From the NCBI GenBank assembly GCA_902779865.1, contig CACZDG010000022.1, positions 1 through 54,842 on the forward strand: DNA of 54,842 nt, in the 5' to 3' direction. Below are positions 22,519 to 38,223 of the stretch, one piece after another. The notes under the pieces were generated by a model, which worked only from the letters and a program-made list of their open reading frames with translations, made no database searches and was not told the origin of the DNA. Position 1 is the stretch's first letter, and each line of letters starts with the position of its first letter. A program made the position numbers and the translations under genes. Source of the stretch: an uncultured bacterium (GTDB taxonomy: Bacteria; Verrucomicrobiota; Kiritimatiellia; RFP12; UBA1067).

Positions 22519-23325
22519 ATGCGTGTCGTCGTCTGCGTGAAGCAGGTGCCGGACACCACGAACGTCCGGATCAACCCCAAGACCAACACCCTGATGCGAG
22601 AGGGCGTGGAGTCGATCGTCAACCCGTTCGACGAATATGCCCTTGAGGAGGCGCTGCGGCTGAAGGATTCCAACGGTGCGCACGTCACGGTGATCTCCAT
22701 GGGGCCGCCGCAGGCGACGGCCGTTCTCCGCGAGGCGCTCGCCCGCGGCGCGGACGACGCGTTTCTCGTGTCGTCTCGCGCCTTCGGCGGTGCGGACACC
22801 CTCGCGACAAGTTACACGCTGTCGCAGGCCATCAAGAAGGCCTGCGGCGGCGCAAAGCCCGACCTCGTCCTATTCGGCAAACAGGCGATCGACGGCGACA
22901 CCGCCCAGGTCGGCCCTGGCGTGAGCGAGTTTCTCGACATGCCGTTGGTGACGTACGTGAAGAAACTGGATGTGGCTGACGGGCGTTTTACGGTTGAATC
23001 CCTCATGGATGACGGTACGGCAGTCATTGAGGGCGCTCTCCCCGCCGTGATGACTGTGGTGAAGGAGGCCTCTACGCCGCGCTTCGCATCGCTTGTCGGA
23101 TGGATGGACGCAGCGAAGGCACAGGTCACGATACTGGATGAAAAGGCGATAGACGCGAATCCCCTCTGGATCGGTCTCACCGGTTCTCCTACGAAGGTCG
23201 TGACGATTTTCCCGCCGCCGACGAAGGGTGGTGGAAACAAGATCGATGCTCGCGGCGACGCATCCGCCGGCGCGCGTGAAATAGCCGGATTCCTCAAGCA
23301 GAAAGGCCTGGTGAAAAATGGCTGA
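22519..23325 (+). CDS. etfB: Electron transfer flavoprotein subunit beta
   Basis: The 268-residue product begins MRVVVCVKQVPDTTNVRI and contains NPFDEYALEEALRLKD, the TDLVLFGKQ-like segment PDLVLFGKQAIDGDTAQVGP and YVKKLDV, all conserved in EtfB. With EtfA it makes an FAD-containing heterodimer that passes electrons between dehydrogenases and carriers. It starts two bases after the mutarotase stop and overlaps etfA by eight bases, so the pair is translationally coupled. No acyl-CoA dehydrogenase or FixC-like gene lies nearby, so the redox partner is unknown. Confidence 0.92.
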   Translation: MRVVVCVKQVPDTTNVRINPKTNTLMREGVESIVNPFDEYALEEALRLKDSNGAHVTVISMGPPQATAVLREALARGADDAFLVSSRAFGGADTLATSYTLSQAIKKACGGAKPDLVLFGKQAIDGDTAQVGPGVSEFLDMPLVTYVKKLDVADGRFTVESLMDDGTAVIEGALPAVMTVVKEASTPRFASLVGWMDAAKAQVTILDEKAIDANPLWIGLTGSPTKVVTIFPPPTKGGGNKIDARGDASAGAREIAGFLKQKGLVKNG

Positions 23326-24562
23326 CGCTCCAATCTTCATCGACCCGGCCAAGTGCAAGGGCTGCGGCAAGTGCGTGAAGGGCTGCGGCTTCGGTGCCCT
23401 TTCGATGGTGGACAAACCTGGCGCGAACAAGGTCGGCAAGCTAGCTGTTGTGGACGCGAGTGCCTGCAAGGCGTGTTCCGCATGCGTGAAGTCGTGTCCG
23501 TTCAACGCCATCACGGAAGTGAAGCAGAGGGTTTACGGCACGGCGAACATCGAATCGTACAAGGACATCTGGGTGTTCGCGGAGCAGCACGGAGGCGTCG
23601 TTGCGGATGTCGCTTTCGAGCTTCTCGCGAAGGCGCAGGAGCTGAAGACCCAGCGCGGCAGCGGCGCGAAGGTTTGCGCAGTGCTGCTTGGAAGCGGACT
23701 TCCCGCCGAAGCGGAAAAGTCGCTCGTCGCCGCCGGCGCGGACGTCGTTTACAAGGTGGACAACCCCAACCTCGCCGACTACGAGGCAAACGTCTATGTG
23801 GACGCCGTCGCGCAGCTCGTCGAGAAGCACAAGCCGGAGGTCGTTCTTGCCGGTGCCACCGCCGTTGGACGCGCCTTCTTCGCGCGCGTTGCGGTGAAGG
23901 TTCGCACCGGCCTCACGGCTGATTGCACGATGCTCAAGATCGAGGAGACGAGGAACAAGGATACGGGCGCGATGCAGATGCTCCTGCACCAGACGCGTCC
24001 AGCGTTCGGCGGCAACATCATGGCCACCATCATGACGCCGAACCACCGTCCGCAGATGGCCACCGTGCGTCCCAAGGTTTTCAAGAAGGGCGAGATCGAC
24101 CCAAAGCACAAGGGTACGGTGCTCGCGGAGGCGCTGAAGCTGATCGCGCCGCAGACGAAGCTCGTGAAGACCGTGCGCGATCCGGACGCGGTGGACATCG
24201 CCGCGTACGACGTGCTCGTATCGGGCGGACGCGGCCTCAAGAGCGCGGAGAACTTCAAGTTGCTCGCGCGCCTCGCCGAGTTGCTTGGCGGTGAAGTCTC
24301 CTGCTCGCGCGCGTGCGTCGATGCCGGATGGTGTCCCGCCACGCGCCAGGTGGGCCAGACCGGTAAGACCGTGGCCCCGAAGCTCTATCTCTGTTTCGGC
24401 ATCTCAGGGGCCATCCAGCATCTGGAGGGAATCCGTGGCGCTGATACGATCATTGCCGTCAACACCGATCCTAACGCTCCGATATTCGGCGTGGCGGATC
24501 TAGGCATAGTCGGCGATGCGCTTGAAATCATCCCACGCTTGATAGAGCAGTTGGAAAAGTAG
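23318..24562 (+). CDS. etfA: Electron transfer flavoprotein subunit alpha with N-terminal 2[4Fe-4S] ferredoxin domain
   Basis: Residues 1-65 form a two-cluster ferredoxin: C13, C16, C19, C23 and C50, C53, C56, C60, each with CX2CX2CX3C spacing. The remainder is EtfA, with the FAD-binding C-terminal domain showing VSGGRGLKSAENF, ATRQVGQTGKTVAPKLYL and GISGAIQHLEGIRGADTIIAVN. The total of 414 residues exceeds ordinary EtfA (about 310-330) by the ferredoxin extension, an arrangement seen in anaerobes and in some electron-bifurcating Etf complexes. It is the second gene of the etfBA pair. Whether this Etf bifurcates cannot be decided here. Confidence 0.92.
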   Translation: MADAPIFIDPAKCKGCGKCVKGCGFGALSMVDKPGANKVGKLAVVDASACKACSACVKSCPFNAITEVKQRVYGTANIESYKDIWVFAEQHGGVVADVAFELLAKAQELKTQRGSGAKVCAVLLGSGLPAEAEKSLVAAGADVVYKVDNPNLADYEANVYVDAVAQLVEKHKPEVVLAGATAVGRAFFARVAVKVRTGLTADCTMLKIEETRNKDTGAMQMLLHQTRPAFGGNIMATIMTPNHRPQMATVRPKVFKKGEIDPKHKGTVLAEALKLIAPQTKLVKTVRDPDAVDIAAYDVLVSGGRGLKSAENFKLLARLAELLGGEVSCSRACVDAGWCPATRQVGQTGKTVAPKLYLCFGISGAIQHLEGIRGADTIIAVNTDPNAPIFGVADLGIVGDALEIIPRLIEQLEK

Positions 24563-25180: not shown

Positions 25181-26191
25181 ATGCAGGAATCTCGCCAGAC
25201 GGGTGTTTCCTTCGCCCACGTTTGCAAGATCTACGCAAAGGGACAGAAACCAGCAGTTGAAGACTTCACTTTTGAGGTGCGTCCTGGCGAGTTTCTGGTG
25301 CTGGTGGGGCCGAGTGGATGCGGCAAGTCCACGACTCTGCGCATGGTCGCCGGGCTTGAGCTGTCCACGTCGGGGCGCATCGAGATCGGCGGGCGCGACG
25401 TGACGAACCTGCCGCCGAAAGACCGCGACATCGCGATGGTGTTCCAGAACTACGCTCTCTATCCGCACATGACCGTGCGCGAGAACATGAGTTTCGCGTT
25501 GCGTCTGCGGCACGTTCCGAAGGATGAAATCGCGCGGCGCGTGGATGCGGCGGCGGAGACGCTTGGCCTTGGCGCATACCTTGACCGCTTGCCCAAGGCG
25601 CTTTCCGGTGGACAGCGCCAGCGCGTGGCCGTAGGGCGCGCGATTGTGCGCGAGCCGGCGGTGTTCCTCTTCGATGAGCCTCTTTCCAACCTCGATGCGA
25701 AGATGCGCGTTGAGATGCGCGCGGAGATCGTGCGCCTTCACCACCGCCTCGGCGCAACGATGATATACGTTACGCACGACCAGACCGAGGCGATGACGAT
25801 GGGCGACCGCATCGTTGTGATGGAGAGCGGGCGCATTCAGCAGGCAGCGCCGCCGCTTGAGGTTTACGACCGTCCCGCGAACAAGTTCGTGGCGTCGTTC
25901 ATCGGCACGCCGCCGATGAACCTGTTCCCGCCGGGAGTGCTTGATCTAGGACGCACGGCAGGGGTGCGCCCAGAACATATCAGACTACTCCCTGCGGAAG
26001 GGGCTCCGAAGGATGCCCTGACGGCGACGGTGGACATCGTCGAGCCGCTTGGCGCGGAGACGCTTGTACATGTAATCCTCGACGGACGCCAGACGCACGT
26101 CGTCGTCCGCGCCCCGGGCGACTCGCGCCTGCGACACGGCGACCATATCGCGCTCGTACCAGATCCGGTGAAGACGATGTTTTTCGACTGA
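25181..26191 (+). CDS. MalK/UgpC-type ABC transporter ATP-binding protein
   Basis: The 336-residue product from the ATG at 25181 is an importer ATPase for carbohydrates: Walker A GPSGCGKSTT, Q-loop MVFQNYALYPHMTV, signature LSGGQRQRVAVGRA, Walker B VFLFDEPLSNLDAKM and switch His in YVTHDQTEAMT. The C-terminal OB-type regulatory domain (TAGVRPEHIRLLP) marks the MalK/UgpC/MsmK class. No permease or solute-binding genes accompany it, so it may be a shared ATPase serving several sugar importers, as MsmK does. It follows the FlbD-like gene by 16 bases and precedes the amidohydrolase by 18 bases. Confidence 0.9.
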   Translation: MQESRQTGVSFAHVCKIYAKGQKPAVEDFTFEVRPGEFLVLVGPSGCGKSTTLRMVAGLELSTSGRIEIGGRDVTNLPPKDRDIAMVFQNYALYPHMTVRENMSFALRLRHVPKDEIARRVDAAAETLGLGAYLDRLPKALSGGQRQRVAVGRAIVREPAVFLFDEPLSNLDAKMRVEMRAEIVRLHHRLGATMIYVTHDQTEAMTMGDRIVVMESGRIQQAAPPLEVYDRPANKFVASFIGTPPMNLFPPGVLDLGRTAGVRPEHIRLLPAEGAPKDALTATVDIVEPLGAETLVHVILDGRQTHVVVRAPGDSRLRHGDHIALVPDPVKTMFFD

Positions 26192-26209
26192 CCATAAGGA
26201 AGGCAACAC

Positions 26210-27451
26210 ATGCAGACATCATTCAAGAATCTCGAACTTGACGGCAACGCGGTGGATATCGCGGTGGAGAACGGGCGCATCGCGTCAATCACGCCGTCAG
26301 AACCGTCGCAGTCGCGTCCGCGTCCCGTCGTGCCCGCGTTCTACAACTGCCACACGCACCTCGCTATGAGCCTTCTGCGTGGCTACGCGGACGACCTTGA
26401 GCTTATGCCATGGTTGCAGGAACACATCTGGCCGGCGGAGGCGCACCTTACGGACGAAATCGTTTACGCCGGTACGCGCCTCGCGATTCTGGAACTGATA
26501 CGTTCCGGCACCGTGTTCGCGAATGATATGTACTGGTACGCTCCGGCCGTTGCGCGCGCCGCCGAGGAGATGGGAATCCGCTGTGCGGTGTCGATGCAGA
26601 CGATTGAGATAGGTGGCCTCGGCCACAACGACCCAAAGAACGTGGCCGCCAACGCCGCGCTCGCCGGTTTGCCGCGCGACGCTTCCAGCCGCGTATTCGC
26701 GACGCTCGCTCCGCACGCGATCTACACCGTGTGCGAACAGTCCCTGCGCGACATCGCCGCGCGCGCGAAGGCGGAGGACACTTTCATCCACGTACATGTG
26801 GCGGAGACGCGCTTCGAGGTTGAGACTTGCATGAAGGAACATGGCGGGCGCACGCCCGTCGCCTACTTGAACGACATCGGGCTGCTAGGCCCCAAGACGG
26901 TGATGGCGCATTGCGTCCATTTGACAGACGACGACATTCGCATCATCGCGGACACGGGCGCGGTGATCTGCGAGAACCAGCAGTCGAACATGAAGCTTGT
27001 ATCGGGGCTCTTCCCGTTCAAGCGCGCGGTCGAGATGGGCGGATGCCGCGCTTCAATCGGCACCGACGGAGCTTCTTCGAACAACTCCCTCTCGATGTTC
27101 GCGGAAATGAAGTGCGCGGCGCTTGCTGCGAAGATAGAGAGCGGCGACCCTACATGCGCTTCCGCCAAGACGATATACGACCTTGCAACTCGCGGCGGCG
27201 CTCAGGCGTTTGGCCTCGACGCGGGCGAAGTCCGCGTTGGCGCGGAGGCTGATTTCGTGATACTCGATCCTGGCCGCTTGCCGCTGGTGCCGGGATTCAA
27301 CCGCACTAGCGACCTTGTTTACGCGGCAGACCCGTCGTGCGTTGACACGGTGGTGTGCGCTGGTCGAATGCTGATGGAAGGTGGCGTAATACCGGGCGAA
27401 GAGGAAATCATCGCCGCAGCCCGTTCCGCCGCCGAAATACTCACCAAATAG
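26210..27451 (+). CDS. Amidohydrolase, 5'-methylthioadenosine/S-adenosylhomocysteine deaminase-like
   Basis: The 413-residue product belongs to the TrzA/AtzA/MtaD branch of metal-dependent deaminases. Metal ligands appear as NCHTHLAMSLLRG, HVHVAETRFEVE and AHCVHLTDDDI, and the late Asp is in SIGTDGASSNNSLSMF; LMPWLQEHIWPAE is typical of MTA/SAH deaminases, which convert SAH to S-inosylhomocysteine. A related guanine- or cytosine-type substrate is possible. Its position immediately before a methyltransferase gene (12 bases) fits a link to methyl-group metabolism. A GGAAGG ribosome-binding site precedes the ATG. Confidence 0.82.
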   Translation: MQTSFKNLELDGNAVDIAVENGRIASITPSEPSQSRPRPVVPAFYNCHTHLAMSLLRGYADDLELMPWLQEHIWPAEAHLTDEIVYAGTRLAILELIRSGTVFANDMYWYAPAVARAAEEMGIRCAVSMQTIEIGGLGHNDPKNVAANAALAGLPRDASSRVFATLAPHAIYTVCEQSLRDIAARAKAEDTFIHVHVAETRFEVETCMKEHGGRTPVAYLNDIGLLGPKTVMAHCVHLTDDDIRIIADTGAVICENQQSNMKLVSGLFPFKRAVEMGGCRASIGTDGASSNNSLSMFAEMKCAALAAKIESGDPTCASAKTIYDLATRGGAQAFGLDAGEVRVGAEADFVILDPGRLPLVPGFNRTSDLVYAADPSCVDTVVCAGRMLMEGGVIPGEEEIIAAARSAAEILTK

Positions 27452-27462
27452 GAGATGCTGAA

Positions 27463-28488
27463 ATGGGCGAAAGAATAGAGTTGGTAAAGAGGGCGTTCGC
27501 GGGAGAGATTGTCGAGCGCATTCCCGTGATGGCGCACAACTTCCTGATGGCAGTGCGCGAGGCGGGCTTCACGCAGAAGCAGTTCCGCGAGAGTCCCGAC
27601 GTGATGGTGAAGGCCATGACCGAGGCGACGATGAAGTATGACCTCGACTGCGTGTTGCTGGACGTCGATACGGCGTTACTCGCCTCGGCGTGCGGGGCGG
27701 ACGTGATGTACCCCGACGACCTTGCAGCCGTAGCGAAGGGAACACAGCCCGTTCCGCTTGAGGAGCTGCCGGACAAGGTGAATGAGGTTGACCTCCTCGC
27801 GTCGCCGCGTGTCCGCCACTATCTTGAAGCCGCCGAGCGCCTCGTGCAGTGGGGCAACGAGAACGACCGCTTCATCCGCATCAACGCGGACCAAGGCGCG
27901 TTCTCGCTCGCGTGCATCCTCACGGGCATGGACGAGTTCATGATGGACCTCCTCGACGAGGACTATGAGGAAGACATCAACCGACTCCTCGACGCCACGT
28001 ACTCCGTCGCGCTCAAGATGCACGAGCTGTGCTTCGCCACGGGAGCGCACATGACGAGCTACGGTAACAGCTCCGAGGGATGCAGCGTCATATCCCCCGC
28101 ATGTTTCCGTCAGTTCGCGAAGGAACGCGAAACGCGCCTCGCGGCAGATTTGAAGGCGCGCGGCATCCCGTACCTCTGCCACATCTGCGGCGACGTGAAC
28201 CCGATTCTCCCAGATCTCGTGGAGACCGGGTGCCCCGCCTACGAGCTCGACTGGAAAACGGACGCCAACCGCGTGTTCGAGATTGCGCACGGGAAGTTCA
28301 CGCTCTCCGGCAACGTCGATCCCGCGCTCTTCGTGACGGGCACGCCCGACGAGGTGTATGCGGCGGCGCGGAAGGTGTGCGATATTTTCCGCGGCAAGGG
28401 TGGACTTGTCCTCTGCTCCGGCTGCGCGCTTGGTCCGCAGACGAAGAGCGAGAACCTTGAGGCATTCGTCCGCGCCGCGCGAGACTGA
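27463..28488 (+). CDS. UroD/MtaA-family zinc-dependent methyltransferase (first copy)
   Basis: This 341-residue protein belongs to the uroporphyrinogen-decarboxylase superfamily, in the MtaA/CmuA branch that moves methyl groups to or from corrinoid proteins. The zinc-binding residues of that branch are recognisable in LCHICGDVNP (His-X-Cys) and LCSGCALGP (Cys). The true haem enzyme UroD lacks this Cys pattern, so haem synthesis is unlikely. The ATG at 27463, with AGGAG upstream, is chosen; a longer frame overlaps the amidohydrolase. A corrinoid protein gene lies at 32400 and a second member at 36131. The methyl donor is unknown. Confidence 0.85.
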   Translation: MGERIELVKRAFAGEIVERIPVMAHNFLMAVREAGFTQKQFRESPDVMVKAMTEATMKYDLDCVLLDVDTALLASACGADVMYPDDLAAVAKGTQPVPLEELPDKVNEVDLLASPRVRHYLEAAERLVQWGNENDRFIRINADQGAFSLACILTGMDEFMMDLLDEDYEEDINRLLDATYSVALKMHELCFATGAHMTSYGNSSEGCSVISPACFRQFAKERETRLAADLKARGIPYLCHICGDVNPILPDLVETGCPAYELDWKTDANRVFEIAHGKFTLSGNVDPALFVTGTPDEVYAAARKVCDIFRGKGGLVLCSGCALGPQTKSENLEAFVRAARD

Positions 28489-28532
28489 TGTGGGAAACAA
28501 CAGAAAACACGTACCTTTGAAAGGATGATTCA

Positions 28533-30062
28533 ATGAAAAATCTCCTCACTACCAGAGTTACGTTGGTCGCGACGGGCATTCTGTCGATGTCGCTTGTGGC
28601 GTTTGCCGCACCGCCGCCGACCGCCACCATCATACCCGCGCCGCAGGAAATGCGCGTGACGGGCGGCGAGTACTGGGCGACGAAGCCGCCGAAGATGGAG
28701 AAGGTCGATGGCATCCCACCGGAGGGGTACGAGCTTTCCATCAAGCCGGACGGCATGACGATCCGCTACTCCGACGATGCTGGCGCGTACTACGCGAAGA
28801 TGACGCTCTTCCACATGGGGCGGACGGACGCGCAGAAGAAGTGCCATGTCTATCCGTGTGTGGAGATCAAGGACGCGCCGAAGTTCAAGTGGCGCGGCGT
28901 CCACTTCGACGACGCGCGCCACTTCTTCGGCAAGGAGGTTGTTAAGCGCACGCTTGAGCAGATGTCGTGGTTCAAGTTCAACGTGTTCCACTGGCACATC
29001 ACGGACGACCAGTCGTGGACGCTGGAGATACCCGAGTTCCCCGAGCTCGTGAAGTACGGCGACGAGTGGGTGACGCGCAAGGGACAGAAACCGCGTTCAT
29101 TTGGCGAGAAGGTGGGGCCGTTCTACTACACCGCGAACGACGTGAAGGAGATTCTCGCCTACGCGAAGGCGCGGCACATCACCGTGGTGCCGGAGATCGA
29201 GTTCCCCGGACACTTCCTCTGCGCGCTCTGCGCGTATCCCGAACTGAGCTGCGATCCCAACGACATCCTAAAACACGGACGCCAGCCGCTGTCGCGCGGA
29301 GTCCTCAACAGCGTGATGTGCGTGGGCAATCCCGACGCCATCCGCTTCGTCGAGAAGGTACTGGACTACGTGTGCGAGCTGTTCCCCTCAGAGGTCATCC
29401 ACATCGGCGGCGACGAGTGTCCCCGCCGCGCGTGGACGAAGTGTGCGAAGTGCCAGGCGTTTATCAAGGAGAAGGGGCTGAAGGGTGTGGAGGACATCCA
29501 GCCGTGGCTCACGCGCCACTTCGTGGAATACCTCGCGAAGAAGGGGCGCCGCACGATCGGGTGGGACGAGATATTCGTCGATTCCAAGAACCAGAACGCC
29601 AAGGGCGATGCATTCACGTCCATGCTCCCGAAGACGACAATGGGCATGTGCTGGCGCAACCACGGCGCGGGCGCGCTCGCGGCGAACAAGGGCTACGAAA
29701 TCGTGCGTTGTCCCACGTCGCACTGCTACTTCGACTACAGGCAGGGGCTCCCGGAGGACCCCTACATCTACATCGGCGGGATGCTCCCCCTCGCGCGCGT
29801 CTATCAGTTCGATCCGTTCGTGGGCGTCGAGCCGGAGGCGCGCAAGAACGTGGTGGGCGGACAGTGCTGCAACTGGACGTCGCACACGTGGAACCGCTAC
29901 GACATGGAGTGGAAGCTCTGGCCACGCGGGTTTGCGATGGCGGAGGTGCTGTGGACGTATCCCGATCCGGCGAAACGCGATTTCAATGAATTCACGGAGC
30001 GCGCGGCGGAGTACCGTCGGCGTTTGATCCACTCTCACGTCAACTGCGCCCCGCTGAAGTAG
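28533..30062 (+). CDS. Secreted GH20 beta-N-acetylhexosaminidase
   Basis: The 509-residue product carries a signal peptide (MKNLLTTRVTLVATGILSM, cleavage near AFA-AP) and a GH20b-like N-domain. The catalytic TIM barrel follows: KWRGVHFDDARHFF, NVFHWHITDDQSW, PEIEFPGH and the hallmark VIHIGGDECP, in which D294 and E295 are the substrate-assisted catalytic pair. A conserved Trp-containing SHTWNRYDMEWKLWPRG lies near the end. It removes terminal beta-linked GlcNAc or GalNAc from glycans outside the cytoplasm. It starts 44 bases after the first methyltransferase gene and 10 bases before the next glycosidase, consistent with one operon. Confidence 0.93.
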   Translation: MKNLLTTRVTLVATGILSMSLVAFAAPPPTATIIPAPQEMRVTGGEYWATKPPKMEKVDGIPPEGYELSIKPDGMTIRYSDDAGAYYAKMTLFHMGRTDAQKKCHVYPCVEIKDAPKFKWRGVHFDDARHFFGKEVVKRTLEQMSWFKFNVFHWHITDDQSWTLEIPEFPELVKYGDEWVTRKGQKPRSFGEKVGPFYYTANDVKEILAYAKARHITVVPEIEFPGHFLCALCAYPELSCDPNDILKHGRQPLSRGVLNSVMCVGNPDAIRFVEKVLDYVCELFPSEVIHIGGDECPRRAWTKCAKCQAFIKEKGLKGVEDIQPWLTRHFVEYLAKKGRRTIGWDEIFVDSKNQNAKGDAFTSMLPKTTMGMCWRNHGAGALAANKGYEIVRCPTSHCYFDYRQGLPEDPYIYIGGMLPLARVYQFDPFVGVEPEARKNVVGGQCCNWTSHTWNRYDMEWKLWPRGFAMAEVLWTYPDPAKRDFNEFTERAAEYRRRLIHSHVNCAPLK

Positions 30063-30072
30063 GAGAACTGCC

Positions 30073-32388
30073 ATGGCAACAGGAAAAACAGTGAATGTCT
30101 TCCTTGCGGCGACGGTCGCGGTGTGTGCGATCTTGCCGGCGGCGGAGTTCCCGGATCCGTCCGCCTTCAACCCGACGTGGGAGAGTGCGAAACCTGGTAC
30201 TTCGTACAGCACCGACCTCCCGACGGCGGCTCTGCTCGGCAACGGCTCGCTCGGCGCGGTCAACGGCGGCGACGGCAACCACAAGAAGTTCGTGCTGACG
30301 CGCGGCGACCTCTGGAGCTGCGGCGACTTCACGTGTGGCGGCACCGACAACAACATCCGCCCGATCTCCTTCGCCGACTTCAGCATCGGTCCGGGAATGT
30401 ACAGCGTCACGTCCACGGACACGCTCGACCTGCCCGCTGCGATGCTCCGCACCGAGGGCGGATTCGGCAAGGGGCGCGTGAAGATTGAGACCTACGTGGC
30501 GTCCACGGAGGACCTGCTTGTGATGGTCGGCGTCTCCGACGCGGACGACAGCTGGGCCGTTCACCTGGAGGTGCACAGAGAGAGGAAGTCATTCCCGGTC
30601 GAGGTGAAGGCGTCGAAGGAGGCGTTCTACGTGCGCCGCTCGACGATCAACCGGCTTCCGCCGGGCGATCCACGGGGCTGGACGACGAACGCCACCGCCG
30701 CTTTGAGCGTACTCGGCACGGAGCTTGAGAACTTCTCGGTAGCGGGCGAAGGGCACGTGATGACATGGGCGAAGATACGCGCCAACGTGCCCTTTGCGTT
30801 TGTCATCTCGTCCAACCCCTCTCGCCGCTTCACATGGGATGAGCTCGCAAATCTCAAGAGCGCCCACAACGCCTGGTGGAAGGAATGGTGGGGCCGCAGC
30901 CGCGTCACGACGGGTGATGCAGATCTCGACCGCTTCTATCACGGTCAGGTCTATCTGCTCGGCGCGGGCGTGCGTTCGGGCAAGTTTCCGCCCGGACTCT
31001 ATGGCATTTGGGTGACGACCGACAACGCGAAGTGGCACAACGACTTCCACATGAACTACAACTATGTGGGCACGTACTACGGCTGCTTTGCCGCGAACCG
31101 CTGCGAGGTGGCGGACGCCCTGCCGGACCCGCTCATCGACTATCTGCCGCAGGCGATTCGCAACGCGAAGGAGGTGCTGCCGCATCTCGACAGGTGCAAG
31201 GGCCGGTTCTACAAGAACACGCGCGCCTATTTGAACAGCCGTCCTGATGTCGCAAACGGCATCGACGATGCGGCGTTCTACCCCGTGGCGCTCGGTCCGT
31301 GGGGCACGAGCGCGGAAGGACATGACAGCTACTGGAGCCAGATTTCCGACGGCGCGTTCCAGTGCGCCGTGATGTGTACGCACTGGGAATACACGCTCGA
31401 CCGTGACTACCTGAAGAAGGTGTGGCCGGTTCTCGACAAGACGGCAAACTTCTTCCTCAAGTGGTGCGAGAAGGAGGCGACGCCGGATGGCGGATACCGC
31501 TACAACGTGTGGGATTCGCACTGGGAGGGGAGCGGCCTTGCGAAGAACAGCGCGCCCGCGCTCGGCTGCGTGAAGCATCTCTTCGAGACGCTTGTGGATG
31601 TCGCGCCGGTCCTGCGCGAGATGGGGATTGATGTGCCGGCGGCGAAACTTGCCGCGTGGAAGGACATGCACGAGCACCTCTCCCCGCTCGCCGTCGGCGT
31701 GTATTCGATCAACGGCAAGCCGGTGAAGATGCTCTCGGGCGTGGAGAACGCGGACGGCTCCGCGAACCCGTCTGGCGGCAACGCGCTCAACCTTGAAAGC
31801 GTGATTCCCGGCGAGCAGTTCGCGTTCGACGTGATGCCGGAATTCCGCGCGCTGGCCGTCGGTGCGGTGGACGGCAACATCGCCATCGGGAAGGGGCATG
31901 CGTGGTCCGGCATCAACCAGACGCCGAAGCTCTTCGCGACGGCGATCCGCGCGGGATATCCCGCACAGGCCGTCATCGACGCGTTCAAGAAGCACCAGCT
32001 CAGCATCATGCAGAAGAACTTCCACATCCACGACGGCGTGCATGGAGTCGAGAAGATCGGCGCGATGGAGTTCGTACAGTCGATGCTCATCCAGTGCGAC
32101 CACGGGTTCGTGAAGGTGTTCCCCAACTGGACGGGCGCGGACGCGAAGTTCGAGAACCTGCGCGCGAAGGGCTGCTTCCTCGTCTCCGCCGAGATGAAGG
32201 ACGGCAAGGTCGTGCGCGTGGAGGTGAAGAGCGAGAAGGGCGGACGGTTTAGGTTGGTGGATCCGAGACAGCAAGCGTACAACAGCAAGTTGCCGGCGGG
32301 CTGGACGCGCGGCAGGACGCGCAACAGCGGCGAGGCGACGCTCGAGCGCGACTTCAAGCCCGGCGATACCGTTGTGCTGAATCCTTAG
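30073..32388 (+). CDS. Secreted GH95-like (alpha/alpha)6-barrel glycosidase
   Basis: The 771-residue product has an N-terminal hydrophobic signal (VNVFLAATVAVCAILPAA) and a GH95-type N-domain with AALLGNGSLGAVNGGDG. The helical barrel shows GIWVTTDNAKWHNDFHMNYN, VWDSHWEGSG and a late GVEKIGAMEFVQSMLIQCDHG. This order matches the GH95/GH65 clan, but the canonical NTEMNYW and HRHxSHL motifs are replaced, so activity may differ from fucosidase. The C-terminal beta-domain contains a copy of the 22-nt repeat, read as RQQAYNSK. It is between the GH20 and corrinoid-protein genes with gaps of about 10 bases on each side. Confidence 0.75.
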   Translation: MATGKTVNVFLAATVAVCAILPAAEFPDPSAFNPTWESAKPGTSYSTDLPTAALLGNGSLGAVNGGDGNHKKFVLTRGDLWSCGDFTCGGTDNNIRPISFADFSIGPGMYSVTSTDTLDLPAAMLRTEGGFGKGRVKIETYVASTEDLLVMVGVSDADDSWAVHLEVHRERKSFPVEVKASKEAFYVRRSTINRLPPGDPRGWTTNATAALSVLGTELENFSVAGEGHVMTWAKIRANVPFAFVISSNPSRRFTWDELANLKSAHNAWWKEWWGRSRVTTGDADLDRFYHGQVYLLGAGVRSGKFPPGLYGIWVTTDNAKWHNDFHMNYNYVGTYYGCFAANRCEVADALPDPLIDYLPQAIRNAKEVLPHLDRCKGRFYKNTRAYLNSRPDVANGIDDAAFYPVALGPWGTSAEGHDSYWSQISDGAFQCAVMCTHWEYTLDRDYLKKVWPVLDKTANFFLKWCEKEATPDGGYRYNVWDSHWEGSGLAKNSAPALGCVKHLFETLVDVAPVLREMGIDVPAAKLAAWKDMHEHLSPLAVGVYSINGKPVKMLSGVENADGSANPSGGNALNLESVIPGEQFAFDVMPEFRALAVGAVDGNIAIGKGHAWSGINQTPKLFATAIRAGYPAQAVIDAFKKHQLSIMQKNFHIHDGVHGVEKIGAMEFVQSMLIQCDHGFVKVFPNWTGADAKFENLRAKGCFLVSAEMKDGKVVRVEVKSEKGGRFRLVDPRQQAYNSKLPAGWTRGRTRNSGEATLERDFKPGDTVVLNP
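32268..32289. repeat. Intragenic 22-nt repeat copy (one arm)
   Basis: It matches the 14251 arm at 21 of 22 bases but is read one frame away, as RQQAYNSK rather than TASVQQQ. The similarity is therefore at DNA level and does not reflect protein homology. No inverse arm follows. Confidence 0.85.
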
Positions 32389-32399
32389 GAGGTCGAGGG

Positions 32400-33050
32400 A
32401 TGGAACTTTCGCTCATATCGGAGAAACTTCAGGCGGGTCGTGCCAAGGAAGTTGTTGCCCTCGTGCAGCAGGCGCTGGACGAGGGGATGAGCGCGCAATC
32501 CATCTTGCAGGACGGCCTCATGGCCGGAATGGCCGTGGTGGGCGTTCGTTTCAAAAACGGCGAGGCGTTCGTCCCGGAGGTGCTCGTGGCCGCGCGCGCG
32601 ATGAACAAAGGTGCGGCGGTGCTTAAGCCGCACCTTGCGGCGGAAGGCGCGAAGGCGACGGGGCGGGTGTGTCTCGGAACGGTGCAGGGCGACTACCACG
32701 ACGTCGGCAAGAATCTCGTCAAGATGATGCTCGAGTCGAAGGGGCTTGAAGTGATCGACCTCGGCACGGACGTTCCGCCGGACGCCTTCATCAAGACCGC
32801 GCAGGAACAGAACTGCGCCGTGATCTGCTGTTCCGCGCTTCTCACCACCACGATGGAGGTGATGCGTGACGTGGTGAAGGCGGCGGAGGTGGCTGGCATC
32901 CGCGACAAGGTGAAGATCATGATCGGCGGTGCGCCGATTACCGAGGCGTTCTGCAAGGAAGTGGGCGCTGACTACTACACGTCCGACGCCGCCCGCTGCG
33001 CCGACGTTGCAGCCGAGATCTGCCGTGCTGGAGTGAATATAAAAGACTAA
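32400..33050 (+). CDS. Corrinoid (cobalamin-binding) methyltransferase protein, MtbC/MtmC-like
   Basis: The 216-residue product has the two-domain layout of methyl-carrying corrinoid proteins: a helical cap (residues 1-85, LVQQALDEGMSAQSIL and FVPEVLVAARAM) and a Rossmann B12-binding domain. Its GDYHDVGKNLV (H100) matches the D-X-H-X-D-G-class signature in which His coordinates cobalt. It should shuttle methyl groups between a substrate-specific methyltransferase and an acceptor. An AGGAGG ribosome-binding site overlaps the end of the upstream glycosidase. Two UroD-type methyltransferases and an activase sit in the same cluster. It lacks the homocysteine and SAM domains of MetH. Confidence 0.92.
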   Translation: MELSLISEKLQAGRAKEVVALVQQALDEGMSAQSILQDGLMAGMAVVGVRFKNGEAFVPEVLVAARAMNKGAAVLKPHLAAEGAKATGRVCLGTVQGDYHDVGKNLVKMMLESKGLEVIDLGTDVPPDAFIKTAQEQNCAVICCSALLTTTMEVMRDVVKAAEVAGIRDKVKIMIGGAPITEAFCKEVGADYYTSDAARCADVAAEICRAGVNIKD

Positions 33051-33114
33051 TCAGGGAAAAGGCTGGGTTGAAACTGTATTTAACGTGATTTGAATGGCGC
33101 ATTGATTGGGACCT

Positions 33115-33130
33115 CCGCCATCTTGGCGGC
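33115..33130. repeat. Short hairpin CCGCCA-TCT-TGGCGG
   Basis: A 6-bp inverted repeat with a 3-base loop, followed by C. The 16-base sequence is the reverse complement of the core of the hairpin at 13429-13445, so both may be copies of one small dispersed element. It lies about 65 bases after the corrinoid-protein stop and could act as a weak terminator. Confidence 0.55.
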
Positions 33131-33258
33131 ACCCCAACTTGGTGTCCCGCCGAGCCGCCTCTGTCATTTCGCCGCCCCACATCCACCCATTTCGCCAACC
33201 TAAACCTCCGTTCCGCGCCGTAATATTAGAGTTCGGCCGGCAAAAGCAACCTGCTCAA

Positions 33259-33396
33259 ACCCTAAAGGGAACGGGGGGATTACTCTCCAAGTGAGTCGCG
33301 AACGACCCTCCAAGTGACCCGCAAATTTGTCTTCAAGAGAAGCGAAACATACTCTTCAAGAGAAGCCCGGAATACCCTTGAGGACACAGTCATTTT
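33259..33396. repeat. Second tandem array: six degenerate units of 23 bp
   Basis: Units start at 33259, 33282, 33305, 33328, 33351 and 33374, exactly 23 bases apart, with a loose consensus ACYCTYCAAGWGAASCG. The phase is kept although units differ by several bases. The sequence differs from the array at 12944 except for the shared start ACnCyC-CA, but the period is identical. Confidence 0.75.
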
Positions 33397-33417
33397 CACA
33401 AAAAACCGCCGTGGGGA

Positions 33418-33447
33418 TTGACAAGTCATGGAATGGTGTGCTATCAT
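33418..33447 (+). promoter_or_regulatory. Promoter upstream of the GH127 gene
   Basis: A perfect TTGACA (33418-33423) and TATCAT (33442-33447) are separated by 18 bases. It lies directly after the 23-bp array and would give a leader of about 210 bases. It suggests that the GH127-methyltransferase-activase genes form their own transcription unit. Confidence 0.65.
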
Positions 33448-33548
33448 ACAACCATCTTCCATTGGGAGCCCAACAACTTTGAACGGTAAAACGCAAATGA
33501 CGTCATGGCGGAGGCATAGAACGGCATCGGAAACGACGCCGGGTACAT

Positions 33549-33605
33549 CTTGTTGTCGTAAGCTTGTTGTTTTATCGCGCACGGTAGCAAATGTACAACA
33601 GCAGG
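33549..33605. repeat. Diverged inverted pair of the 22-nt repeat in the GH127 leader
   Basis: Positions 33549-33570 (starting CTTGTTGTCGTAAGC) match the inverse arm of the 14251 element at 19 of 22 bases. Positions 33584-33605 match the forward arm of the 32268 copy at 17 of 22. The order is reversed relative to 14251 (inverse arm first), with a 13-base loop. Confidence 0.6.
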
Positions 33606-33662
33606 AGTTTCACAAATCAAATCTTTAACAATGGATATAATGGGAATGGTATGGAGACAAAT

Positions 33663-36134
33663 ATGATTCGTACCGCGATTGCAACAGCCTTCGTGGCGGC
33701 GGCGTTGCCGTCGTTGGCGGGGGGCTATCCGTATTCGCCTGCGGCGCTGAATGACGTGAGGGTGACGGGTGGGTTCTGGCTGCCGCGCGTCGAGACGAAC
33801 AGGCTCGTGACCGTCAAGACCGACTTCCGTAAGTGCGAGGAGACCGGGCGCATCGCGAACTTCGAGAAGGCCGCGCGGCGCGAGAAGGGCGGATTCAATG
33901 GCGTGCCGTGGGACGACTCCGATGTGTTCAAGGTGATCGAGGGCGCGGCCTACACGCTCGCCCAGCATCCCGACGAGGAACTCGACCGCTACCTAGACAA
34001 CCTCATCGCACAGATTGCCGGCGCCCAGGAGCCGGACGGCTACCTTTACACCGCCCGCACGCTCGGACACAAGGAGAAGATGATGGGCCCGAAGCCGTTC
34101 AGCCAAAACCGCGACGCCTGCGAGCTCTACAATGTGGGCCACCTCTACGAGGCCGCCGTGGCGCACTACGAGGTGACGGGCAAGCGTACGCTCCTCGACG
34201 TCGCGATCAAGAACGCCGACCTCGTCGCAAAGACGTTCGGCCTCTGTGAGGGGCAGAACCGCGAAGTGCCCGGCCACGAGGAAATTGAGATCGGCCTCTG
34301 CCGTCTCTACCAGGCGACGGGCGACGCGAAGTACCTCAAGCTCGCGCAGTATTTCATCGACATGCGTGGACGCAAGGACCTCAGGCCCATCTGGGGTGCG
34401 GCCTACCAGGACCACAAGCCGGTGCTGGAGCAGAAGGAGGCGCTCGGACACGCCGTCCGCGCCGCGTACCTCTACGCCGGCATGGCCGATGTCGCGGCGC
34501 TCACGGGCAACACGGCGTATGTTGAAGCGATCGACGTGCTCTGGGAGAACGTCGTTGGACGAAAGCTCCACCTCAACGGTGGAATCGGCGCAAGGCGTCA
34601 TGTCAAGTACCGCGACCCCGCGCTCGGCAGTGCGCACGAGGCGTTTGGCGACGAGTACGACCTGCAGAATCTCGACGCCTACCTCGAAACGTGCGCGGCG
34701 ATCGGCAACGCGCTCTGGAACGAGCGCATGTTCCTCCTGCACGGCGACGCGAAGTACATCGACGTGATGGAGCGCACGCTCTACAACGGACTCATCAGCG
34801 GCGTCTCCATCGGCGGCGACGAGTTCTTCTATCCGAATCCGTTGGCGTCGAAGGGCGGATACAAGCGCTCGAAGTGGTTCGGGTGTAGTTGCTGTCCCGT
34901 GAACGTGGTGCGCTTCATTCCGCAGATCGGACGCTTCGCCTACGCGATGAAGGGGAACGCCGCGTATGTGAACCTGTTCGTGGAAAGCAAGGCGACGCTA
35001 CGTCTCGCCAGTGGCGAGGTAAGGCTCGCACAGAAGACGGCGTACCCGTGGAAGGGCGGCGTGCGGATCGAGGTGGAGCCGGGTTGTGGCGCGGGAGAGA
35101 CAGCAAGCGTACAACAACAAGTCGTGCGACCCGAGACACAAAACTTCACGCTTAACATCCGTGTGCCGGGATGGTGTGTGGGGCGGCCGGTGCCGAGCGA
35201 TCTCTACGAACAGGTCGTGCCAGGCACGCTGGAAGACTTCCGCGTGACGGTGAACTGTGCGGCGGTGAAGGTCACGCCCGTGAAGGGCTACTGCGTGCTC
35301 GACCGCGCATGGAAGGCGGGCGACGTGGTGGAGGTCGCGATGAACATGCCGGTTCGCCGCGTCAAGGCGAATGACAAGGTCGCGGCGGATCGTGGACGGG
35401 CCGCAGTGGAGTGCGGTCCGATTGTCTTCTGTGCCGAGGGGATAGACAACGGCGGCAAGGTGCTGGATGCCTGCCTGCCGCTGAACACCACATTCACCGA
35501 AGGCGAGATCGAGATCGCTTCGACGCGGATGGTGTCGCTCACGGGCGGCGGGCTGACGCTCGTGCCGTACTTCGCGTGGTGCCATCGCGGCGCGGGCGAG
35601 ATGCAGACGTGGTTTGCCGAAAGCGCGGAGGCGGTCATGGAGAAGGTGCGCGACGCGCGCGTCCAGGCGTCGTACTGCAACGCCACCGATTCCGTGTGTG
35701 CGGTGTGGGACGGCATTCTTCCGAAGTCGTCCGACGACCTCGAGCCGCCGCGTCTCACGTTTTGGAACCATCTCGGGACGGAGGAGTGGGTGCATGTCAA
35801 GTTCGACACGCCTCGGACGATACGGTGCGTCGAGGTGTACTGGTTCGACGACTATGCCACGCGTCGGGCCGGCTGTGCGTTGCCGGAGACATGGGCGGTG
35901 CAGTTTCGCGACGATGCGGCGTCCCCGTGGCGTGACAAGATCGACGCCGACTACACAACGGTGTTGAACGGCTTTTCTCAGGCGCTTTTCGCGAAGCCAG
36001 CCACCGCGACGGAATTTCGCATTCGTCTCAAGAGCCGTCCAAAGAAATCTGCCGGTATCATCGAGATCCGCGTGCGCCGAAAGGGTTCCTGTAGAACATT
36101 CAAACGGACAAATGAAAAGGAGATAGTAAAATGA
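33663..36134 (+). CDS. Secreted GH127 (DUF1680) glycosidase with C-terminal discoidin-like domain
   Basis: GH127 enzymes such as HypBA1 cleave beta-L-arabinofuranosides using a zinc-bound cysteine nucleophile. This 823-residue product has a signal peptide (MIRTAIATAFVAAALPSLAG) and an (alpha/alpha)6 domain. It shows the zinc site: E342 and C344 in LETCAAIG, and GCSCCPVNVVRF with C408, C410 and C411. A beta-sandwich with FTLNIRVPGW follows, and the last about 110 residues (WVHVKFDTPRTIRCVEVYWF onward) look like an F5/8 carbohydrate-binding module. Start 33663 is preferred over 33651 because GGAGA lies eight bases upstream. It contains a 22-nt repeat insert at 35100 and overlaps the next gene by four bases. 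Confidence 0.88.
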   Translation: MIRTAIATAFVAAALPSLAGGYPYSPAALNDVRVTGGFWLPRVETNRLVTVKTDFRKCEETGRIANFEKAARREKGGFNGVPWDDSDVFKVIEGAAYTLAQHPDEELDRYLDNLIAQIAGAQEPDGYLYTARTLGHKEKMMGPKPFSQNRDACELYNVGHLYEAAVAHYEVTGKRTLLDVAIKNADLVAKTFGLCEGQNREVPGHEEIEIGLCRLYQATGDAKYLKLAQYFIDMRGRKDLRPIWGAAYQDHKPVLEQKEALGHAVRAAYLYAGMADVAALTGNTAYVEAIDVLWENVVGRKLHLNGGIGARRHVKYRDPALGSAHEAFGDEYDLQNLDAYLETCAAIGNALWNERMFLLHGDAKYIDVMERTLYNGLISGVSIGGDEFFYPNPLASKGGYKRSKWFGCSCCPVNVVRFIPQIGRFAYAMKGNAAYVNLFVESKATLRLASGEVRLAQKTAYPWKGGVRIEVEPGCGAGETASVQQQVVRPETQNFTLNIRVPGWCVGRPVPSDLYEQVVPGTLEDFRVTVNCAAVKVTPVKGYCVLDRAWKAGDVVEVAMNMPVRRVKANDKVAADRGRAAVECGPIVFCAEGIDNGGKVLDACLPLNTTFTEGEIEIASTRMVSLTGGGLTLVPYFAWCHRGAGEMQTWFAESAEAVMEKVRDARVQASYCNATDSVCAVWDGILPKSSDDLEPPRLTFWNHLGTEEWVHVKFDTPRTIRCVEVYWFDDYATRRAGCALPETWAVQFRDDAASPWRDKIDADYTTVLNGFSQALFAKPATATEFRIRLKSRPKKSAGIIEIRVRRKGSCRTFKRTNEKEIVK
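35100..35121. repeat. Intragenic 22-nt repeat copy (one arm)
   Basis: It is identical to the 14251 forward arm over all 22 bases and read as TASVQQQ in the loop before the conserved FTLNIRVPGW strand of the GH127 protein. No inverse arm follows. Confidence 0.88.
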
Positions 36135-37075
36135 AGTTCATACCAGTTCTTTCCTTCCCGGTTGCAAGGAAGCTCGGACATTCCGTTGGTGAGTTCGTGA
36201 AGTCCGCTGACCTCCAGGTAGAGACGATGGCGTGGATTGCGCGTAATACGCCTGTTGACGCGGTACTCGGGCCGATGGATTTGTCCGTTGAGGCCGAGGC
36301 GTTCGGCGCGAACGTGCGCTTCAGTGACAACGAGGTGCCGGTCGTGACGGGGCAGCTTGTCGGTGACGAGGACGCCGTTGCTGAACTCGCCGTGCCGCCG
36401 CCGGATGTCGGACGTTGCTCGATGACTGTTTCGGCGGTCGCGAAGGTGAAGGCGATGGACGTCGGCAAGCCCGTATTCGGCGGGATGATAGGTCCGTTCT
36501 CGCTTGCGGGCCGTCTCGCAGACGTGAACGAGATGATGTTCCTCATCATGGACGAGCCGGAGACTGTTCACGCGCTTCTCGAGAAGACGACGGAGTTCCT
36601 AATCTCCTACGCCAAGGCGTTCAAGGCGGCGGGAGCGGACGGCGTGTTCATGGCCGAGCCGCTTGCGGGCGTGATTTCGCCAGCTGCGCTCGAGGAGTTC
36701 TCGGCACCGTATGTGCGTCGCATCATCGAGGCGGTCCAGGATGAATCATTCCCTCTCGTGTACCACAACTGCGGCAACAGCGTGGTGAAGGCGGCGGACG
36801 CCATCTTCGCGCAAGGGGCGGCGGGGTGCCACTTCGGTAACGCCGTCGATTTGGCTGAGATGCTTGCAAAGGCACCGGCAAAGACTCTCGTGATGGGCAA
36901 CGTCGATCCTGTTTCCGTTCTCGCGCAAGGCAACCCTGACGCCATCCGCGAGGCTGTGAGCGCACTCGTCGCAAAGTGCGGATCGTATCCGAACTTCGTC
37001 CTTTCGTCTGGCTGCGACATTCCGGCCTCTACGTCGTGGGAGAACCTTGAGGCGCTATTTGAGGCCGCGCGATGA
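36131..37075 (+). CDS. UroD/MtaA-family zinc-dependent methyltransferase (second copy)
   Basis: The 314-residue product belongs to the same superfamily as the 27463 gene but is only distantly similar to it. Zinc-site residues are in LVYHNCGNSV (His-X-Cys) and LSSGCDIPAST (Cys). The segments FGGMIGPFSLAGRL and VMGNVDPVSVLAQGNPD are typical of MtaA-type proteins. It should transfer methyl groups to or from the corrinoid protein at 32400. It is coupled to the GH127 gene upstream (ATGA overlap) and to the activase downstream (overlap at 37072-37075), so these three are one translational unit. Confidence 0.87.
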   Translation: MKFIPVLSFPVARKLGHSVGEFVKSADLQVETMAWIARNTPVDAVLGPMDLSVEAEAFGANVRFSDNEVPVVTGQLVGDEDAVAELAVPPPDVGRCSMTVSAVAKVKAMDVGKPVFGGMIGPFSLAGRLADVNEMMFLIMDEPETVHALLEKTTEFLISYAKAFKAAGADGVFMAEPLAGVISPAALEEFSAPYVRRIIEAVQDESFPLVYHNCGNSVVKAADAIFAQGAAGCHFGNAVDLAEMLAKAPAKTLVMGNVDPVSVLAQGNPDAIREAVSALVAKCGSYPNFVLSSGCDIPASTSWENLEALFEAAR

Positions 37076-38223
37076 GATGCGCTGTCTGCACAAGATGCGG
37101 AAGATGCGGGCTTTATCCGTCGGCGCCGATAAACGAATCGGGCGTCACGGAACTTCCTCGCCTTGTGCCGCGTGATGGATTGGGCGCGGCTGTTGACATC
37201 GGCAGTACCACGATCGTCGTGCGTGTTTACAACCTTGCAACAGGCGAGCTGGTACACAGGGCGTCCACCTTCAATCCGCAGAGAAAGATCGCCGCCGACG
37301 TGATGGGGCGCATATCCGCCGCGATGGAAGGGCGTCTCGACGAACTGCGCGATCTCGTGCGCGGGGCGGTGCGCGATTGCCTTGGCGGCGCGCTCGGTGA
37401 TCGCGCCCTACCGGCGTGCGGCGGGTTACGAGTGCGTGAGGCGGTGGTCGTGGGGAACACTACAATGCTTCATCTGTTCGCGGGGGCGAGTCCAGCATCC
37501 TACGCCACGGCACCGTTCAAGGCGGAGCGGTTGTTCGGCGAGAAGATGGAAGTGGACGGCGTGGAGGTGCGCCTTCCGCGCTGTGCGCACGGGTTCTTCG
37601 GTGCGGACGCTGTCGCGGCGGTGCGCATGTCGGGAATGTGCGGACGTGGCGGCTGTGAGCTGCTGGCAGACATTGGCACGAACGGCGAGATCGCGCTGTG
37701 GCGTGGCGACAGGCGCGAGTTGACAATCGCGTCCGTCGCGGCCGGTCCTGCGTTCGAGCGACCAGGCATCACCGGCTCGCAGATAATCTCCGCGCTCGCC
37801 GATGCGCTTGACAGCGGGGCGGTTGACGTGACCGGCCGTGTAGAAGGGGAACTCCCCGGCGGACTCACGCAGGACGACGTCCGCGCCGTGCAGCTCGCCA
37901 AGGCCGCGGTCAAGGCTGGGCTCGACACGCTCCTCACGAAGGCCGGCGTAGAGTACGGCGACGTGACTCGCTTCTCGCTTGCCGGCGGGTTCGGTTCGGG
38001 GCTTGATGTAGCGAAGGCAGCGCGAATTGGGCTTTTCGCGGGCGAGCTTCAACCAGTCGCAACCGTATGCGGAAACCTGGCGATAGAGGGCGCGGCGGCG
38101 GCTCTTTTCGACCCGTCGTTCGGCGACGAGACAGACAAAATCGCGCACGAAGCGCGTCATGTGGAGCTAGGAGGCGACCCGGAATTCTCCGACGCCTTTA
38201 TCGAGGCAATTGGATTTACATGA
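37072..38223 (+). CDS. RACo-like reductive activase of corrinoid proteins (ASKHA/DUF4445)
   Basis: Activases of this family use ATP to reduce the oxidised Co(II) cofactor of corrinoid proteins back to Co(I). The 383-residue product has an actin-like ATPase domain (AAVDIGSTTIVVRVYNL, VVVGNTTMLHLFAG, LLADIGTNGEIAL, SLAGGFGSGLD) matching RACo's C-terminal part. The usual N-terminal [2Fe-2S] ferredoxin and linker (roughly 200 residues) are absent. In their place is a 12-residue start, MRCAVCTRCGRC, with cysteines at 3, 6, 9 and 12. That CX2CX2CX2C could hold a [4Fe-4S] cluster. It overlaps the methyltransferase stop by four bases and ends the cluster. Confidence 0.85.
   Translation: MRCAVCTRCGRCGLYPSAPINESGVTELPRLVPRDGLGAAVDIGSTTIVVRVYNLATGELVHRASTFNPQRKIAADVMGRISAAMEGRLDELRDLVRGAVRDCLGGALGDRALPACGGLRVREAVVVGNTTMLHLFAGASPASYATAPFKAERLFGEKMEVDGVEVRLPRCAHGFFGADAVAAVRMSGMCGRGGCELLADIGTNGEIALWRGDRRELTIASVAAGPAFERPGITGSQIISALADALDSGAVDVTGRVEGELPGGLTQDDVRAVQLAKAAVKAGLDTLLTKAGVEYGDVTRFSLAGGFGSGLDVAKAARIGLFAGELQPVATVCGNLAIEGAAAALFDPSFGDETDKIAHEARHVELGGDPEFSDAFIEAIGFT

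Follow-up and report, generated by a model that had tools for sequence, protein, structure and literature searches.

Positions 25181 to 38223 of the window, that is, the whole 54,842-nucleotide contig CACZDG010000022.1 from an uncultured member of the Kiritimatiellia, hold a block of genes on one strand which, judged by sequence, very probably encodes a corrinoid methyl-transfer system. Its four components, two UroD-type methyltransferases (U1 and U2), a corrinoid protein (Corr) and a RACo-like activase, lie in one operon with genes for glycosidases and co-occur in related genomes, and much of the U1 clade is found in a sugar context; a dedicated folate acceptor of the Pterin_bind type is absent by sequence. 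The best-supported reading, on which I am evenly divided, is that the methyl donor of U1 is derived from a glycan. In what follows, G- and L-numbers denote the genomes and loci of this analysis, G000 being the source assembly of the window (GCA_902779865.1, 92% complete).

Domains were called by Pfam and NCBIfam profile searches of the window's proteins. U1 (UroD1, 27463..28488, + strand), a candidate methyltransferase I (MT-I), and U2 (UroD2, 36131..37075, + strand), a candidate MT-II-like enzyme, match the URO-D family PF01208 with 158 and 212 bits, respectively, and both are predicted zinc methyltransferases. Corr (32400..33050, + strand) is a B12-binding methyl carrier with the motif GDYHDVGKN, and a short RACo-like reductive activase (37072..38223, + strand) closes the block. 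The sequence marks of corrinoid methyl transfer are present: a carrier (PF02607 and PF02310, both over cut-off), two PF01208 methyltransferases with a His-Cys-Cys (HCC) site, and an activase (PF14574 and PF17651, the middle and C-terminal domains of RACo, both over cut-off). Between these genes stand a hexosaminidase-type enzyme of glycoside hydrolase (GH) family 20 (28533..30062, + strand, PF00728, 330 bits), a GH95-like enzyme (30073..32388, + strand, PF22124 catalytic domain, 71 bits against a cut-off of 27) and a GH127 enzyme (33591..36134, + strand, PF07944, 358 bits). By eye, from the translations, the first two have signal-like N-termini, and the GH127 protein has a signal-like sequence after an internal Met. 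The genes named in an earlier note on this DNA are borne out by Pfam matches, all on the + strand, as are the four-base overlaps it described, since ATGA is shared at both the GH127/U2 and the U2/RACo junctions.

The assembly has no PF01208 matches besides U1 and U2; a HemE-like PF01208 protein was not found in G000, and both matches score higher with MtaA-type models than with hemE. The closest NCBIfam models of Corr are of the MtgC and MtbC types, with scores below their cut-offs. The activase starts with CxxCxxCxxC, a start common to the window, G012, G002 and RUG14528, and shows no match to a [2Fe-2S] domain; a second short activase type, with a different Cys cluster at its start, occurs in G016. 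The GH127 enzyme was also considered as an aceric-acid hydrolase, and with 453 bits against a cut-off of 950 it falls outside that family by this measure.

In 98 relatives, close orthologues were counted at identities of at least 86% for U1, 71% for U2 and 75% for Corr, with short fragments in G011, G014 and G049 scored as present. U1 and U2 were each found in 10 genomes plus one fragment, and Corr in nine genomes plus one fragment. U1 and U2 occur together in 10 genomes, singly in one and one, and neither occurs in 86 (Fisher p 8.6e-12); the corresponding counts are 9, two and one, and 86 for U1 and Corr (p 3.4e-10), and 10, one and zero, and 87 for U2 and Corr (p 7.9e-13), in tests that ignore phylogeny. 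More distant proteins stand outside these counts, namely U2-clade proteins at 42-52% identity (G030, G043, G047, G067, G079), Corr-like proteins at 43-53% (many genomes) and U1 homologues at 36-37% (G031, G041). The genes are also found in direct contact: G032 has the order U1-Corr-U2 with 4-nucleotide overlaps and no glycosidase in between, Corr follows U1 immediately in G016 and G002, and it precedes U2 in G013. The activase is less regular, as orthologues of 84-92% occur besides the window only in G002, G010 and G012, a type of 39-45% occurs in several other genomes, and none was detected in G014 and G032.

The earlier note had proposed methyl groups of O-methylated sugars as the substrate on account of the interleaved glycosidases, and this linkage recurs in sister genomes. 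U1 stands directly beside a glycosidase in eight of 11 Kiritimatiellae loci (a count without the contig-edge fragment of G011): GH20 in G000, G012, G014, G024 and G032, a GH101-like enzyme in G016 and G038, and GH123 in RUG14528. At the other three, in G010, G002 and G013, no such neighbour was noted, though part of the flanking genes there was not scanned singly. RUG14528 has a second interleaved operon, in the order U1, GH123, Corr, a protein without Pfam match, U2 and RACo, and the GH95-like gene stands next to Corr in G000, G010, G012 and G014. Of the 12 genomes that carry U1 or U2, 11 have the GH20 orthologue (at least 83% identity), not always on the same contig, against two of the 86 others (11 both, one and two single, 84 neither; Fisher p 8.2e-12, again ignoring phylogeny); within the genus, all eight genomes with the system have it and none of the nine without. 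Pfam tallies of neighbouring genes, here and below, comprise the 25 commonest families, with most single-member families hidden. Near the system in Kiritimatiellae (96 open reading frames, ORFs, from 22 loci, which repeat orthologous loci and are not independent, with five long ORFs given in part), these are GH95 (6), GH20 (5), beta-helix (3), Gfo/Idh (3) and GH101 (2); in contigs taken at random from the window's lineage (103 of 149 ORFs), GH20 was found twice and Gfo/Idh four times.

The sugar context extends beyond the class. I examined 11 distant U1 homologues of 31-41% identity, among them ones from other classes of the phylum and one Oscillospiraceae genome, and at five of them Pfam confirms sugar genes no more than four genes away: PL8 and GH20 in G416, GH38 and a PfkB kinase in G454, GH38 and GH92 in G041, a GH20-like protein in G577, and a hexokinase and a NagB-type protein at the first copy in G130, where a ribose-type sugar ABC transporter was recognised by eye. 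By eye only, G031 has a sugar porter, G490 GH32-like and MFS genes, and the second G130 copy an aldose epimerase as neighbour. As far as gene neighbourhoods indicate, the link to sugars is an old one and goes with U1, because it is seen at five of these 11 homologues and because U2 of Clostridia is not tied to glycosidases (see below).

Alignment to U2 and MtaA places the ligands of the predicted zinc of U1 at H240, C242 and C321, and the HCC site is present in all 10 U1 homologues aligned. U1 and its distant homologues form one clade of 16 rows (support 100/99), apart from MtaA, CmuA, U2 and the non-HCC UroDs. Neither the U1 nor the U2 clade contains a characterised protein of the tree set, which is without OdmB, VdmB, MtvB and MecE; the second of the two trees is also without three long rows present in the first. 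The earlier note would have given up the sugar substrate if the UroDs fell within a clade of characterised non-sugar function; within this set, they form clades of their own.

Other UroDs of the family and order were sampled at 20 hand-picked loci, with 25 UroDs of which one is a U1 homologue. Among 60 of their 61 neighbours, AraC (6), Gfo/Idh (5) and LacI-type binding domains (4) are most common, followed by rhamnosidase, GH38, sugar transporter and FGGY kinase (two each), and in the control from random contigs (60 of 88 ORFs) none of these families reached two members. Three variations on the theme were seen. One chain in G038 (L056:8614-10428) joins a corrinoid protein to a UroD of HCH type, carrier plus methyltransferase. 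A variant constant module in G028, G031 and G041 (L066, L067, L072) consists of a corrinoid protein, a UroD of FCC type, in which F replaces the first zinc ligand, and, by eye, a CobW-like GTPase. A plasmid of Peptoclostridium acidaminophilum (L154) has in one run a UgpC sugar ABC transporter, a DUF4091 gene, which I take to be of GH123 type, a corrinoid protein and a UroD with, by eye, HxC and a later Cys.

The distribution of U2 is different and much wider. Among the best 80 of 533 confirmed matches, the closest titled ones are RUG10619 (95%) and RUG14821 (94%), presumably rumen assemblies, going by their prefix, and other close ones are metagenome-assembled genomes of Kiritimatiellae from yak rumen, water buffalo rumen, roe deer omasum and sheep rectum. 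The remaining 72 lie outside the Kiritimatiellae, at 48-59% identity, mostly in gut Clostridia and also in Coriobacteriia-type assemblies and Flexilinea. The trees place U2 from the window's lineage among Clostridial U2 (support 99/99 in the first tree, 100/99 in the second), which suggests horizontal transfer. This group does not take in the U2-clade proteins of G047, G067 and G079, genomes of the same family or order, so that the transfer may have gone either way. In the fetched flanks of the 72 loci, a corrinoid protein is found at 50, an activase at 35, both at 33 and another UroD at 38. All 94 orthologous U2 ORFs, some of them from duplicate contigs, have H, C and C as zinc ligands, whereas the HCC pattern was not seen in any of the 62 other UroD ORFs of these loci, of which 39 show HCH, DDH or GC and 15 are gapped at one or more ligand positions. 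By this contrast, U2 appears as the constant partner, with the other UroDs as variable MT-I enzymes.

Within three genes of U2 at the 72 loci (117 of 176 eligible ORFs scanned; control, 118 of 131), AraC (16) and PocR (10) regulators prevail, and a single cellulase, a single beta-galactosidase chain and a single Pterin_bind protein were seen. A role for U2 as sugar enzyme was ruled out: its Clostridial neighbours are regulators and not glycosidases, and U2 therefore appears to have no glycan link of its own. The glycosidase linkage claimed for U2 thus did not carry over outside the Kiritimatiellae. A motif search also found a small Cys-rich protein with a CPPD-type motif, presumably DUF2284-like, in 23 of these 72 loci (L081-L152), often between U2 and the activase.

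Where the methyl group would go was approached through the genome inventory. The earlier note saw no methyl-tetrahydrofolate acceptor enzyme in the block, and this holds for the whole assembly as far as PF00809 (Pterin_bind) is concerned: the only matches are FolP-like and MetH-like, and a Pterin_bind-type MT-II, as expected of a folate-linked O-demethylase, was not found in G000 (MtrH, PF02007, was not searched). The MetH-like match sits in a frame of 832 amino acids that also holds a B12 domain. Relatives without the system have FolP-like and MetH-like PF00809 matches as well, and methionine synthase as the main role of the system was ruled out, as these relatives carry the MetH-like frame too. 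Selenophosphate synthase (SelD) exceeds the cut-off in five of 60 genomes (a scan without G038 and G049), none of them of the genus, and not in G000; SelA, SelB and tRNA-Sec were not searched. Nitrogenase-like, that is, MarHDK-like, proteins exceed it in two of the 60, again not in G000. A selenium route, including the scavenging of methylseleno-sugars, and methionine salvage with MarHDK were ruled out on these grounds.

The path that I propose runs as follows. Secreted glycosidases would trim a glycan bearing methylated sugars, and the methylated sugar or a derivative would be imported. In the cytoplasm, as the gene neighbourhoods suggest, U1 would transfer the methyl group to the Co(I) form of Corr and release the sugar to normal catabolism. 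U2 would then pass the methyl group from Corr to a thiol, with homocysteine or some other small thiol as the likeliest acceptor, because its zinc site is MtaA-like and no folate-type MT-II was found, and the RACo-like protein would, by homology, re-reduce inactivated Co(II) with ATP. A corrinoid system built into a glycan-use operon, with this full path to a thiol acceptor, should at best be taken as a proposal that falls a little short of probable.

Several observations weigh against a glycan-derived donor, foremost the zinc site. Both U1 and U2 have the HCC site which Kountz and Balskus (PMC10418091) tie to sulfur and selenium substrates, carboxylate ligands being tied to oxygen substrates. 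This site is the strongest counter-argument to a sugar substrate. It is not decisive, because Zn(Cys2His) binds alcohols in alcohol dehydrogenases. U1 is moreover rare: of the 35 U2-bearing genomes searched outside the Kiritimatiellae, G130 alone has a homologue above 35%, and the cut-off was passed in one of 197 genomes of G130's order and in 10 of 288 genomes from the window's phylum, so that U2 usually works without U1. In Clostridia, U2 is not tied to glycosidases, and the one Pterin_bind protein among the 117 genes near it makes a folate partner possible at some loci. The presence of a MetH-like protein means that a methionine route is not needed. Both U1 copies of G580 lack a clear sugar gene nearby, and G520 has only a sulfatase four genes off, recognised by eye. 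The operon is often broken, several relatives having U1, Corr and U2 distributed over different contigs. The co-occurrence counts are drawn from related genomes; the 83% limit for GH20 was chosen after the identities were known, with a paralogue of 81% in G012; and Gfo/Idh is as common in random contigs as near the system.

Alternatively, the block may be a type 1 mlp gene cluster or a close cousin, with both UroDs acting on methyl-sulfur or methyl-selenium compounds in selenide recycling or methionine salvage, and with the glycosidases as bystanders. I consider this unlikely. As PMC10418091 describes them, such clusters have two MtaA-like UroDs, a corrinoid protein and an activase without a folate methylase, a thiol acceptor is proposed for them, and they occur in two physiological settings, tied to selenium use or to MarHDK-like genes. 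The window has the same components on one strand, with the HCC site in both UroDs, and an SAH/MTA-type deaminase adjoins U1; the cluster definition, which asks for at least two Mlps more than 25% identical to an SCMT with a corrinoid protein and Ram on the same strand, agrees with the identities to the aligned part of MtaA, 25.6% for U1 and 29.7% for U2. Core genes of type 1 clusters are, however, at most 2 kb apart, whereas 3.9 kb separate U1 from Corr and 3.1 kb Corr from U2 in the window (in G032 they are contiguous), glycosidases lie inside the operon, and the genome lacks both the SelD selenium trait and MarHDK-like genes. Together with the FolP-like and MetH-like nature of the only PF00809 matches, these absences count against the roles proposed for type 1 clusters as well as against a folate acceptor. 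U1 and U2 also fall in clades other than those of MtaA and the Acetoanaerobium cluster, an unverified proxy for the Mlp references that groups with MtaA (95/83 in the first tree, only 80/53 in the second); the adjacency of the deaminase is not conserved, and sugar neighbourhoods recur at U1 homologues.

About as improbable is that the genes share an operon by chance, in a genome dense in glycosidases and subject to fast rearrangement, with unrelated functions. The scattering of Corr, U1 and U2 over contigs fits this, as do flanking genes such as tRNA synthetases, CstA and, by eye, a PlsY type, the occurrence of GH20 in random contigs of the same genomes, and the many GH20 paralogues (38 of 98 genomes pass). 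Chance does not readily explain why the U1-GH20 and GH95-Corr pairs are kept through rearrangements, why RUG14528 has a second interleaved operon with GH123, why the sugar context is repeated at U1 homologues elsewhere, or why the GH20 orthologue co-occurs even when it is not adjacent. A third possibility, that U1 is an MT-I for aryl methyl ethers or haloalkanes derived from plants in the rumen, appears very unlikely. The systems OdmB, VdmB and MtvB and CdmBCA, as described in PMC13222342, do combine a UroD-superfamily MT-I with a corrinoid protein and an activating enzyme, as the window does with its MT-I candidate. They also include an MT-II, whereas a dedicated PF00809 protein of this kind was not found in the window's genome; no aromatic or halide gene was seen among the nearby proteins scanned, and CmuA is not close to U1 in the tree without OdmB, VdmB, MtvB and MecE. 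The interpretation of the earlier note is thus supported in part: the association with glycan genes is no chance feature of one contig, given the U1 neighbours, the co-occurrence with GH20 and the distant homologues, and its further links, to the deaminase and of U2 to glycosidases outside the Kiritimatiellae, are not supported.

Methyl ethers of sugars are found in glycans of plants, algae, invertebrates and microbes, and they would be expected to impede ordinary sugar catabolism. The published case of sugar demethylation that I came across is that of 6-O-methyl-D-galactose in marine Flavobacteriia, by a P450 monooxygenase with formaldehyde as product (PMC10033563), so that the way in which methylated sugars are dealt with in anaerobic guts, rumens and sediments looks like an open question. 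The P450 system resembles the present proposal in removing a methyl group from a sugar and in lying inside a polysaccharide locus; the window's enzymes are unrelated to this formaldehyde-producing monooxygenase. Corrinoid-dependent sugar demethylation was not found among the open-access titles and abstract starts listed, several lists comprising part of the matches (15 of 87, 10 of 2,763 and 12 of 147) and subscription papers being mostly outside this scope. MtgC/MtgD, described in the abstract of PMC12478193 as a dual methionine synthase and glycine betaine demethylase of aerobic bacteria, likewise uses a corrinoid protein in substrate demethylation and serves methionine synthesis too, but its substrate and aerobic hosts differ, and MtgD is not called a UroD protein there.

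More broadly, I would put forward, as a tentative and rather unlikely reading, that the U1 clade comprises anaerobic sugar demethylases and that methyl metabolism in Kiritimatiellae and relatives is organised in modules and does without folate. Methyl groups of methylated sugars would pass from several to many UroDs, many of them in glycan loci, to a common corrinoid protein, and another UroD (U2 or the UroD-CobW variant) would transfer them from there to a thiol. The glycans may be methylated ones containing N-acetylhexosamine, because GH20, GH123, GH101, PL8 and NagB-type neighbours recur; mucin-type glycans of invertebrates that carry O-methylated fucose or galactose would be examples, offered with the same reserve. 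If U1 is a sugar demethylase, an enzyme family is named for direct assay, a reason is offered for the UroD expansions in the order, and a methyl route bypassing folate is added.

The tight run begins upstream of U1 with a UgpC/MalK-type ABC ATPase of carbohydrate importers (25181..26191, + strand, NCBIfam UgpC, 437 bits against a cut-off of 432), which brings the sugar-related genes of the block to three GH genes and this one ATPase. It is followed by an amidohydrolase of the S-adenosylhomocysteine (SAH)/methylthioadenosine (MTA)/5'-deoxyadenosine-deaminase type (26210..27451, + strand, Amidohydro_1 PF01979, 219 bits). From UgpC to Corr the gaps are 18, 11, 44, 10 and 11 bp, with 600 bp then upstream of GH127. 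The earlier note saw this gene as also touching on methyl metabolism; its adjacency to the system is not conserved in the loci of relatives, and it was rejected as a member, as no best-hit homologue above 30% was found in the relative loci annotated (L033-L152, L205-L212). As regards a polysaccharide utilization locus, no SusC/D-type pair was found among the 29 window proteins scanned. Upstream of the block, at 22519-24562, lie genes for EtfB and for an EtfA that has two 4Fe-4S stretches, which may supply the activase with electrons, and further upstream, at 13552-20223, a protein of 2223 amino acids combines DUF5703 and GH95 catalytic domains.

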